The position numbers and the translations under genes are program-made. DNA of 64,000 nt, taken from Aliiglaciecola sp. LCG003 (GTDB taxonomy: Bacteria; Pseudomonadota; Gammaproteobacteria; Enterobacterales; Alteromonadaceae). Positions 39,929 to 44,498 of this stretch are shown one piece after another. Numbering within the stretch: the first letter of the stretch is position 1; every line of letters begins with the position of its first letter. A model generated the notes under the pieces. The model saw only the letters and a list, made by a program, of their open reading frames with translations. It was not told where the DNA came from and did no database searches. Location: assembly GCF_030316135.1 (NCBI RefSeq), contig NZ_CP128185.1, positions 2,976,001-3,040,000 of the forward strand, written 5' to 3'.

Positions 39929-41947
39929 TTAGGAAAGTTTAACGCTTTGCTCTCTTAGCACCTCAATTTCATCCCGTATACTTGCCGCTTTTTCAAACTC
40001 AAGCTCTCGGGCTGCCACGAACATGCTTTTCTCCAATTCGGCAATTTTGCTCATTAATTGGGTGGCGTTCATAGATTGATATTTCTTAGTCGCCTCAGCC
40101 ACTTTACGTAATTTTACTTTGCCGCCAACATCAATGGAGTTACCATCGCCTACATCCATGATGTCGGTAATAGGTTTATTCAATTGGGTCGGAGTGATCC
40201 CATTGTCGAGATTGTGTTGTCGTTGTTTATTGCGACGACGCTCAGTTTCCTCCATCGCACGCTGCATCGAGCCCGTTATCCGATCTGCATATAATATGGC
40301 CTTGCCATTAATATTCCGCGCCGCTCGACCTATGGTTTGGATAAGCGCCCTGTCGGAGCGCAAAAAACCTTCTTTGTCGGCATCTAAAATTGCCACCAAG
40401 GACACTTCAGGCATATCCAAACCTTCTCGTAACAGGTTGATCCCGACCAGTACATCGAACTTTCCGAGACGCAAATCACGGATGATCTCGATACGCTCAA
40501 CCGTATCTATATCAGAGTGCAGGTAACGCACCTTAATACCGTGTTCATCAAGGTAATCACTCAGATCCTCAGACATCCGTTTAGTTAAAGTCGTCACCAA
40601 TATTCGTTCATTAACCGCCACCCGCTTGTGGATTTCTGACATAACATCATCCACTTGAGTACCGACAGGACGTACTTCTATCTCAGGATCAATCAATCCG
40701 GTAGGTCTAACGACTTGTTCAACTATATCTTCGCCGGATTTCTCAATCTCATATTTGCCCGGTGTCGCAGACACATAAATAGTCTGGGGGGAAATTTGCT
40801 CAAATTCTTCAAATTTGAGTGGCCGATTATCCAGAGCAGAAGGCAATCTAAAGCCAAACTCAACCAAGGTTTCTTTACGAGAGCGATCCCCTTTAAACAT
40901 AGCGCCGATTTGCGACACAGTTACATGAGACTCATCGATAAATAGCAAGCCATCGGCAGGAAAATAATCCAAAAGTGTTGGAGGCGGTTCGCCCGGCGCA
41001 CGGCCCGACAGATACCGAGAGTAGTTTTCGATACCCGAGCAATAGCCTAACTCCTGCATCATCTCCATATCAAATTGAGTTCGCTGAACAATACGCTGCT
41101 CTTCGACCAATTTATGCACCGATTGCAATTGCGCCTTCCGCTCTTTCAATTCAACTTTGATATGCTCAACAGCGGCCAGGATTTTTTCTCTTGGCGTAAC
41201 ATAATGGGTTTTAGGGAATACAGTCACCCGAGTTACCGTTTTTTCTACAGAGCCGGTTAAAGGATCAAACAAACGGATATTATCGATTTCTTCATCAAAC
41301 AGCTCTACGCGGATGCCCTGCTTTTCAGAGTCCGCAGGAAAAATATCAATCACATCCCCGCGTACTCTGAATGTCCCCCTTTCAAAGGAAACATCATTGC
41401 GGGTGTATTGTAATTCGGCTAAACGGCGCAGGATGGCGCGCTGATCCATCAAATCGCCCTGACGAAGATGTAATAGCATTTTCATATAGGATTTAGGGTC
41501 ACCCAAACCATATATGGCAGAAACGCTCGACACTATCACTACGTCTCGACGTTCCATCAAAGACTTAGTCGCCGACAACCGCATTTGCTCGATATGATCG
41601 TTTATGGAGGAGTCTTTTTCGATAAAGGTATCGGTACTAGGTACATAGGCTTCAGGTTGATAATAATCGTAATAAGAGACAAAATATTCTACCGCATTAT
41701 TGGGAAAGAACTCTTTCATCTCACCATACAACTGCGCCGCTAGGGTTTTGTTGTGAGCAAGGATTAAGGTAGGACGCTGTACCTGACTAATGACATTGGC
41801 CATGGTGAAGGTTTTACCGGATCCTGTCACCCCCAGCAGTGTTTGGTTAGCTAAGCCGCTGTCCAAACCATCAACCAATTGTTCGATTGCCTTGGGCTGA
41901 TCCCCTGCAGGTTGATAGGTCGAAACTAAGTCAAATGCTCTACTCAC
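39929..41947 (-). CDS. uvrB: Excinuclease ABC subunit B
   Basis: UvrB is the damage-verifying helicase-like subunit of nucleotide excision repair. Walker A is [14 protein letters not shown] (about residues 37-50), the beta-hairpin region includes [14 protein letters not shown], the DEAD-like box is [10 protein letters not shown], motif VI is QTIGRAARN, and the C-terminal UVR domain ([19 protein letters not shown]) binds UvrC. The 672 residues match E. coli (673). It lies 5 bp downstream of the MATE gene, so it is probably co-transcribed. I found no convincing LexA box near. Confidence 0.98.
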
Positions 41948-41952
41948 TTATA

Positions 41953-43332
41953 TCAAACCTCATTGTTTACCTTATCTAATTGAAATAATTTAGTACTGCG
42001 CATAAACCAGCTGTAAGCTAGACTGGCAGTAAACAGATTCGCTACTATCAACCCCCAAAATAGCCCTTTGATATCAGCCCATTGACTGCCGATGTAAGCC
42101 AAAGGCACGTAGAATACAAATAACCGTACAATACTTAATATCAGTGCTGACAGTGGTTTATGTAATGCATTGAAAGATGAGTTGGTTAATACAACTACAC
42201 CTTGTAAACCATAGCCTAAGGGTACGATCATTAAGAACAAAGTGATCAACTCTTCAACAGTTTGATCTTCTGCAAATATGGCTGCGATGTAAGGAGCGAC
42301 AAGCCAAAGTATGCCAAATATCATTAATTGAAAGATAATCACAAAATTTAGCGACAGGGTATAACTTTTTCTAACCCGACCTTGCTTGTTAGCACCATAA
42401 TTTTGACTGATAAAGGGTGGCAATGACATTGATAAAGCCAACACCACAATACTTGCGATGGATTCTAGTCGACTTCCCACTCCCCAAGCCGCTACAGCGG
42501 CAGGTCCATAACCTGCGACTATAGCCGTGATCACCCCAACAGCGATAGGTGTAAGCATATTCGCACCGGCTGCGGGCAATCCAATTTTTAACACACCACC
42601 ACTGGTTAGCCTAAGTTCTTTCCAGTTTAGTAGGCGTGGCAGGATCAATTTTCGCTTTAAGGCCAATAGATAAAGGATGTAGATTAAGCCGATTGCCCAC
42701 GCAATGGCTGTGGCAAGTGCAGCTCCCTTTATACCCATGGCAGGGATCGGTCCCCAACCAAAGATAAGAATGGGGTCAAGAATAGCATTTATCAAGCCGC
42801 CACTGGCCATCACAATACTCGGGGTTTTGGTATCCCCAGAAGCTCTTAATACGCTATTACCCACCATAGGAACAGCAAGAAAAATACCTGCACCGTACCA
42901 CACTAGCATGTAATCTCGTATAAAGGGCATAAGCTCATCCGTGGCTCCCATCAGACGAAATATAGGATCTATGCTCAACGCACCAATAAACGCTAATATG
43001 CCCACTAGGATAAAAGAAAGCATCAATGCACCGGTTGCAAACTCCTTGGCCATTTGGGTTTCGCCAGAGCCCAATGCTCGGCCAATGACAGCAGATGCAC
43101 CTATGCCCAAGCCAATATTTAAACTTATGATGGTAAAAGTAACTGGAAATGTAAAACTGATAGCAGCAAGCTCTTCAGTGCCAAGTAAACTGACAAAAAA
43201 CGTATCGACCAACCCAAAGGTCATTAGCATCACCATGGCCAACACCATAGGTAAAGTCATTCGCTTTAAGGTTTCAGGGATCGGGGCGTTTAACAGATCA
43301 TTATTTCTACTTGAAGGCTTGGTTTGACTCAC
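41953..43332 (-). CDS. MATE-family efflux transporter
   Basis: A 459-residue membrane protein with twelve hydrophobic segments and the internal two-fold repeat of MATE transporters. Motifs are LGTEELAAISFTFPVTF in the first half and GYGPAAVAAWGVGSRLESI in the second, with GLGIGASAVIGRALGSGE. MATE proteins export cationic drugs or metabolites in exchange for Na+ or H+. It precedes uvrB by 5 bp; a functional link between the two is not evident. Confidence 0.92.
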   Translation of the reverse strand: MSQTKPSSRNNDLLNAPIPETLKRMTLPMVLAMVMLMTFGLVDTFFVSLLGTEELAAISFTFPVTFTIISLNIGLGIGASAVIGRALGSGETQMAKEFATGALMLSFILVGILAFIGALSIDPIFRLMGATDELMPFIRDYMLVWYGAGIFLAVPMVGNSVLRASGDTKTPSIVMASGGLINAILDPILIFGWGPIPAMGIKGAALATAIAWAIGLIYILYLLALKRKLILPRLLNWKELRLTSGGVLKIGLPAAGANMLTPIAVGVITAIVAGYGPAAVAAWGVGSRLESIASIVVLALSMSLPPFISQNYGANKQGRVRKSYTLSLNFVIIFQLMIFGILWLVAPYIAAIFAEDQTVEELITLFLMIVPLGYGLQGVVVLTNSSFNALHKPLSALILSIVRLFVFYVPLAYIGSQWADIKGLFWGLIVANLFTASLAYSWFMRSTKLFQLDKVNNEV

Positions 43333-43816
43333 GTGATTGTCATCTCTTTTTAGCTCAATGAATGATGGTAAGCGATATAGATTTTATTGACTATGCTCAG
43401 TATTAAATTGCTGGCCTGTTTTGGGTCTAAATATAATTCAAACTTCGGCTTAAATTTGGCAACACTATTATGACAGGAATAACACAGAACAAATTCAACT
43501 TTTTGCTAAATCGCTGTGTAAAAGCGGCCTAATAAAGTGTAACTGCTTTTTTACGCCTTGGATTAAAAACACAACTCACCACTGGCCTGAACCAATAAAC
43601 TGAAAATTTTCATCCACTAATACCATTTTCAGTAATCGTTTTCAGTAAACTACACACAGCGCAGGATTAGCCGGGGCAGTATAATACTCATTTTTGAAAA
43701 ATCCCCCAGCAACAATTTGTATCTATCTGTTTTACATAATTTTTAATATTATTGATGAATAAGTGAATTCTCATATTGACATTATCAAACAAATTTGAAG
43801 CATAGTGCCTATCTAT

Positions 43817-43851
43817 TTATGCACAGACTTATCCACAGGAACGGTGGATAA
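43817..43851. promoter_or_regulatory. Cluster of three DnaA boxes (DARS/datA-like candidate)
   Basis: Three DnaA boxes lie in 35 bp: TTATGCACA (43817-43825, plus), TTATCCACA (43829-43837, plus, perfect consensus) and TTATCCACC (43843-43851, minus, one mismatch). Gaps are 3 and 5 bp. Two boxes run in tandem and the third faces them, an order recalling the core of the E. coli DnaA-reactivating sites (DARS). E. coli DARS1 lies beside uvrB, and here the MATE-uvrB operon is adjacent. No DnaA-controlled origin genes are near, so a titration or reactivation site is more likely than an origin. Confidence 0.6.
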
Positions 43852-44274
43852 CTGGACTAATCTCAATTGCAGCGCCCAGTTACAGTTATGTGACCAAAAT
43901 TTAGGTAAGTCGCCACTAACCCTAGGAGCTTTGATTTTATGTTTCAGTTTTATGAAACACTGATCTAACGAACAGTGATCAACTGTTTCTTTATAACTAT
44001 TTAGTCTAGCATTGTGCATTTATTGTTATTAAAAAATGGCACCGAAATTGCCCAGAAATTGTCAAGTCTGTCAACCAAAACAAGTAACTTTTTGAGGTTA
44101 AATGAGGTGATTTCGACTACTCTCACACCTAGTGTAAATCGCAAATTCAGCTTAACATTTTAGCTCGATCAAAAACCCAGTATATAAAACATCCTAGGAC
44201 TGTTGATTTTATCACCTTTACTGCATTTAATTTGAGCAAATAAACATATTCCTTAAAAAACCTTCGATATTGTG

Positions 44275-44312
44275 TTGACAGATTGCGTGTTGCTCATTAA
44301 CATTCGCCTCCG
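44275..44312 (+). promoter_or_regulatory. Stable-RNA type promoter of the tRNA-Asn genes
   Basis: A perfect -35 TTGACA (44275-44280), 17-bp spacer and -10 TAACAT (44298-44303) are followed by a GC-rich discriminator TCGCCTCCG. Such discriminators mark promoters under stringent (ppGpp/DksA) control. The start would be near 44310, about 14 bases before the first tRNA. Confidence 0.75.
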
Positions 44313-44323
44313 TTGAAATCCGG

Positions 44324-44400
44324 TCCCCCTTAGCTCAGTTGGTTAGAGCGACGGACTGTTAATCCGCAGGTCCCCCGTTCGAGTCGGGGAGGGGGAGCCA
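44324..44400 (+). tRNA. tRNA-Asn (anticodon GTT), first copy
   Basis: A 77-nt cloverleaf with encoded CCA. The acceptor arms are TCCCCCT and AGGGGGA with discriminator G; the D-arm is GCTCAGTTGGTTAGAGC; the anticodon GTT is at 44358-44360; the T-loop is GTTCGAGTC. It is identical in sequence to the next copy. Confidence 0.97.
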
Positions 44401-44421: not shown

Positions 44422-44498
44422 TCCCCCTTAGCTCAGTTGGTTAGAGCGACGGACTGTTAATCCGCAGGTCCCCCGTTCGAGTCGGGGAGGGGGAGCCA
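44422..44498 (+). tRNA. tRNA-Asn (anticodon GTT), second copy
   Basis: Identical to the first copy over all 77 nt, including CCA; the anticodon is at 44456-44458. Only 21 nt separate the two, so they are one transcript. The spacers before the two copies differ, so only the tRNA itself is kept identical. Confidence 0.97.

Follow-up and report, generated by a model that had tools for sequence, protein, structure and literature searches.

Known DnaA-reactivating sites

The cores of the two DnaA-reactivating sequences of Escherichia coli, DARS1 and DARS2, have a common spacing, and box I is opposed to boxes II and III in both of them (PMC5742627). The DnaA pair is described as standing head to head at DARS (PMC8682772), and a stretch beside the last box raises the activity of E. 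coli DARS1 (PMC4585315). The E. coli places are kept in Vibrio cholerae, where DARS-like sequences were located at the same positions (PMC6090056, citing Fujimitsu 2009), and DARS-like sequences are present in a number of Gammaproteobacteria (PMC4451416, citing Fujimitsu 2009). The Aliiglaciecola site described here would therefore add to the known DARS. In the literature searched, of which the coverage was partial, neither a DARS of Alteromonadaceae nor a priA-linked DARS was described.

The window analysed here is a 64,000 bp stretch of the chromosome of the marine strain Aliiglaciecola sp. LCG003. We consider that a triplet of DnaA boxes in it is very probably the DARS1 of this chromosome (probability about 0.86), because of its geometry, its conserved place before uvrB, its conservation in relatives and the DnaA residues kept by this organism.

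DnaA-box cluster in the window

The features of the locus are listed in Table 1. The first-pass annotation had described two tandem DnaA boxes and one opposed box with gaps of 3 and 5 bp, and the coordinates, strands and gaps were all exact. It had also placed them in a gene-free, AT-rich region of about 1 kb, with MATE-uvrB on one side and tRNA-Asn on the other. The region from the MATE ORF to the first tRNA-Asn gene (43333-44323) is 991 bp long with 65.4% AT, vs 56.3% for the whole window, and the ORFs and tRNA genes were located as described; a plus-strand rnf gene comes next after the two tRNA-Asn genes.

Table 1. Features of the locus upstream of the MATE and uvrB genes (positions in the window)
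Feature	Position	Strand	Remark
DnaA box I (TTATCCACC)	43843-43851	-	faces boxes II and III
Box I-II spacer	43838-43842	-	5 bp, GTTCC on the minus strand
DnaA box II (TTATCCACA)	43829-43837	+	equals the consensus
DnaA box III (TTATGCACA)	43817-43825	+	3 bp from box II
Putative DARS core, whole unit	43817-43851	-	read in the uvrB direction
MATE efflux transporter ORF	41953-43332	-	between core and uvrB
uvrB ORF	39929-41947	-	5 bp past the MATE ORF
Two tRNA-Asn genes	44324-44400, 44422-44498	+	divergent from the MATE and uvrB ORFs
LexA-box-like palindrome, CTG-N10-CAG	43960-43975		one base off CTGT-N8-ACAG; starts 124 bp before the core
Conserved, nearly gap-free block	43852-44000	-	on the box I side; holds the LexA-like box and the GTTAGT-N4-ACTTAC motif

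The window has no excess of single boxes: with no more than 1 mismatch allowed, TTATCCACA was found 20 times vs 17.9 expected, and TTWTNCACA five times vs 8.5 expected. It is the cluster of boxes, not the frequency of single boxes, that carries the signal. For the whole core we used a 35-base pattern with 28 fixed positions, derived from the window core together with both E. coli cores; these three match by construction. In the LCG003 genome (4,411,932 bp, one contig), this pattern had two matches at no more than 3 mismatches, the window core and C1:2675757-2675791, and the reversed control had none; the cluster is therefore beyond chance.

An origin of replication was rejected for this site. 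The first-pass annotation had thought oriC unlikely, in agreement with our finding that the origin context is missing and that dnaA (C1:110) is 1.39 Mb away.

Comparison with E. coli DARS1, DARS2 and datA

The MG1655 sequences of DARS1 and DARS2 were taken from their genomic places. Read on the uvrB strand, the window core is TTATCCACC-GTTCC-TGTGGATAA-GTC-TGTGCATAA and E. coli DARS1 is TTATCCACT-ATTCC-TGTGGATAA-CCA-TGTGTATTA, and the core of DARS2 is TTATTCACC-TTTTC-TGTGGATAG-AGT-TGTGAAGAA. On the uvrB strand of the window, box I is followed after 5 bp by box II and, after another 3 bp, by box III, which is the geometry of both E. coli cores. The alignment with these cores that the first-pass annotation proposed thus gave equal geometry and similar spacers, and the layout that it gave for the DARS core, two tandem boxes and one opposed box, agrees with the E. 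coli cores, to which the window core is equal in box number, order, orientation and both gaps.

The likeness to DARS1 (bioD-uvrB) includes three boxes with gaps of 5 and 3 bp, the spacer NTTYC, an intergenic position and the same orientation to uvrB. The two loci differ in their neighbours: Aliiglaciecola has the MATE gene between core and uvrB, as some other families do, and tRNA-Asn and rnf genes on the far side, where E. coli has bio genes. In Aliiglaciecola the LexA-like box precedes the core (-124), whereas a comparable box lies downstream in six enterobacterial loci (+317 to +328 from the core start). The geometry of DARS2, located between rppH and mutH, is identical to that of the window core, which lies at another place, before uvrB. 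The activity-raising stretch beside the last box of E. coli DARS1 had no clear counterpart on the box III side of the window core, where identity was 0.33 in 20 Alteromonadaceae loci; the conserved block is on the box I side.

A datA-like site, the alternative offered by the first-pass annotation, was not supported. E. coli datA also has DnaA boxes close to tRNA genes, but they are spread without a convergent 35-bp triplet of 5/3 geometry, and its tRNA genes are tRNA-Gly; identity with datA was rejected because of this different box layout.

Conservation in the genus and the order

Matches at no more than 2 mismatches were present in seven of nine genomes of the genus (LCG003 included), and one of the two without a match is 59% complete. 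At the same threshold, the pattern was found in 135 of the 295 order genomes and the control in none; some of the other 160, for example Alteromonas, match at 3-4 mismatches. Forty matching places were hand-chosen from the genus and order matches and spread over families: 22 precede uvrB on its strand, nine are between rppH and mutH, seven at the dapE place described below and two elsewhere. A second set of 19 places comprised 12 before uvrB, five at mutH and two elsewhere. In one family (f2 g15; L075, L180, L182), a second core was observed at a place with no uvrB or mutH found; it is near a tRNA-Ala gene in L075 and near a gltX-like ORF, judged by eye, in L182.

Through a search with UvrB we picked loci independently of the boxes, taking the best 80 of at least 586 relatives, in which close relatives dominate; the top match was Aliiglaciecola sp. 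3_MG-2023 (L089). A core was found upstream of uvrB in 32 of these best 80 loci at no more than 2 of 28 mismatches, in 62 at no more than 4 and in 73 at no more than 6, and 71 of the 73 cores were on the uvrB strand. At no more than 6 mismatches, neither the reversed pattern nor the stretch of uvrB plus its downstream sequence gave a match in any of the 80. Seven loci contained no core at this threshold. Two of them have less than 1.2 kb of upstream sequence (a Tolumonas bin with 299 bp and an uncultured Colwellia with 1,168 bp), and the others belong to gammaproteobacterium NORP105, Shewanella OPT22, Thalassotalea mangrovi and two Kangiella. Lack of conservation of boxes and spacing among relatives, named earlier as an argument against the site, was thus not observed, with cores conserved in 73 of 80 UvrB-anchored loci.

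For the sequence around the core we stacked 20 Alteromonadaceae loci without gaps (the window and L089-L107). Mean pairwise identity was 0.83 in the core vs 0.31-0.50 in the flanks, where it was 0.40-0.50 over the 160 bp next to box I and 0.31-0.37 outside. In the alignment of seven genus loci, the best 35-column windows were 80% invariant and started 0-5 columns before the core, vs an alignment mean of 14%; another such window, about 60 columns upstream, was 77% invariant.

Spacing of the boxes

In 118 genomes of the order we searched with a free gap, requiring TTATCCAC and GTGGATAA 0-20 bases apart and TGTG within the next 12. Matches were found in 66 of the 118 genomes, and the reversed control matched in one (G118). 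The gap between boxes I and II, the only gap counted, equalled the DARS gap in 70 of 77 strand-wise matches, was 8 longer in six and 4 longer in one; with two places that were read on both strands counted once, 69 of 75 had the DARS gap. This preference fits the head-to-head DnaA pair. In the family f7 (G039, G015, G059, G077 and G094), the gap between boxes I and II exceeds that of DARS by 8 bp, which might represent a variant core.

Second core and chromosome position

The second core of LCG003 (C1:2675757-2675791, equal to L048 7758-7792) is located between a patatin-like gene and a cluster of ACT, EIIA, ArsC and dapE-like genes. Places of this dapE type are near tRNA-Val and the dapE cluster. 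Relatives of the patatin, ACT, ArsC and dapE genes were present in all seven such loci, LCG003 included, and a relative of the EIIA gene in five of the seven; none of the five was found in the four other loci. DARS2 was sought in the rppH-mutH gap of LCG003 and rejected, since this gap contained no core at no more than 6 mismatches and no DnaA box at no more than 1. Judged by these placements, the lineage would have DARS1 in the usual place and a second core elsewhere than at mutH, because the dapE-side core is present and its own rppH-mutH gap is empty; this arrangement is less expected.

The distance from the window core to dnaA is 0.63 of half the chromosome, and that from DARS1 to oriC in E. 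coli is 0.66. We searched 24 genomes for dnaA, assuming ter to be opposite to it, and left out four with cores not at uvrB (G055, G009, G071 and G129) and one with its chromosome in several contigs (G264). The distance ranged from 0.57 to 0.98 over the remaining 19 genomes, LCG003 included, which speaks against a fixed distance from the origin as a rule.

LexA-like box and conserved block

In 17 of the 20 Alteromonadaceae loci, which are related and thus not independent, the LexA-like palindrome precedes the core by 123-125 bp. By the CTG-N10-CAG rule it was absent in L095, L104 and L106; L146, a locus named Alteromonadaceae outside the set of 20, has none either. The rule gave four matches elsewhere in 69,691 positions scanned, and a mean of 0.3 with a maximum of 3 on the base-shuffled 330 bp before the core. 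Two LexA-like boxes are within 44 bp before the ATG of the LCG003 lexA gene and another precedes a second gene that encodes a LexA-type domain, so that a CTG-N10-CAG-type box is likely the LexA motif in Aliiglaciecola. The motif alone is weak evidence, as TACTGT-N8-ACAGTA at no more than 1 mismatch was found at 19 places in the genome vs 13 for the reversed control. Scores of a promoter weight matrix clearly favoured neither direction at the LexA-like box.

No reading frame across the conserved block is open in more than two of the 20 loci, and a small protein encoded there was rejected accordingly. The GTTAGT-N4-ACTTAC motif, at 43900-43921 in the window, might be a regulator site. In 19 of the 20 Alteromonadaceae loci a motif of this kind starts 69-70 bp upstream of the core, and the same rule found none within 250 bp before the core in other families. 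A further conserved stretch of the genus alignment, similar to GTCACATnACTGTAAC and located at 43879-43894, resembles a Pho box by eye.

In E. coli, uvrB is repressed by LexA and by DnaA, with the promoter uvrBp3 overlapping DARS1 (PMC6015884), and the effect of DARS1 is lost when it is strongly transcribed (PMC5010248). Considering the latter together with the LexA-like box upstream of the core, we might tentatively speculate that DARS1 of Alteromonadaceae is wired to the SOS response, with a LexA-held promoter reading through the core into MATE-uvrB; we regard this as possible but doubtful. DNA damage would then turn on the MATE-uvrB repair operon, and transcription through DARS1 would switch off DnaA recharging and hold back new rounds of replication. 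The fixed distance of the LexA-like box makes the locus a direct test case for DNA damage turning a DARS off.

Cores outside the order

Beyond the order, 15 of 138 genomes of the class matched at no more than 2 mismatches, at 18 places. None of these had uvrB, mutH, mnmG or dnaA matched within about 1.5 kb on each side. A PriA-like gene on the opposite strand was found at six of the 18 (L206, L214, L215, L219, L220 and L223, with the core at 1501 in each; named through a profile in L206 only), and its start is separated by 124-230 bp from the core's far end. The other 12 cores lie elsewhere than PriA-like genes. The 5/3 geometry before PriA-like genes might be a DARS or a DnaA operator tied to replication restart. 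Since the geometry stands away from uvrB outside the order, it is not alone a proof of DARS1, and the argument also depends on the position upstream of uvrB.

Proposed DARS1 function and competing explanations

Of 461 residues aligned between the DnaA proteins of LCG003 and E. coli, 370 are identical, among them 86 of 94 in domain IV. The LCG003 protein keeps R227, D269, R281, R285, L290, R334, R399 and T435, residues of which changes were tested at DARS, with R281A still active (PMC4245941). Extrapolating from the E. coli work, ADP-DnaA would bind boxes I-III, and because boxes I and II converge, the molecules bound there would meet head to head via their AAA+ domains. ADP would then be released from DnaA, as expected from E. 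coli, and the apo-DnaA would take up ATP and become competent to start replication at oriC. An effect on the timing of initiation may follow, by the same analogy.

An unlikely explanation is that the boxes are mainly a DnaA-controlled operator of the MATE-uvrB operon, with DnaA recharging weak or absent. The core indeed stands upstream of this operon, and E. coli uvrBp3 is repressed by DnaA via a DARS1 box (PMC6015884). The recurrence before PriA-like genes in six of the 18 outside-order loci also agrees with an operator, as do weak promoter-matrix signals over the core, which exceeded 3 bits toward uvrB in 10 of 20 loci and away from it in 8 of 20. However, the 5/3 geometry is found again at places other than uvrB, between rppH and mutH and close to dapE, and simple repression would have no need of the observed preference in spacing.

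That the site would act like datA, titrating DnaA or promoting hydrolysis of ATP-DnaA, is very improbable: a cluster of DnaA boxes near tRNA genes recalls datA, but the spread boxes of the E. coli site lack the convergent triplet and the geometry in the window is that of DARS. We give equally little credit to an RNA hairpin in the operon leader, for which boxes I and II form an inverted repeat. A transcript would give an 8-bp stem, and the 161-nt stretch folds with z = -2.06, six of 200 shuffles folding at least as well; we rejected the RNA leader reading, as this folding support is weak. An inverted pair of DnaA boxes folds inevitably, no U-run comes after the stem, box III is kept without being part of the box I-II stem, and the element is also present before other genes, at the known place of DARS2. 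The DARS-like function claimed in the first-pass annotation is supported, at the level of sequence features, by the box layout, by the place and orientation to uvrB shared with DARS1, and by the conservation in relatives.

Reading the site as DARS1, we found that the core spacing and the place before uvrB have been kept well beyond E. coli, despite changing neighbour genes. The kept spacing and place argue that the DnaA recharge step may be an old part of replication control in the order.
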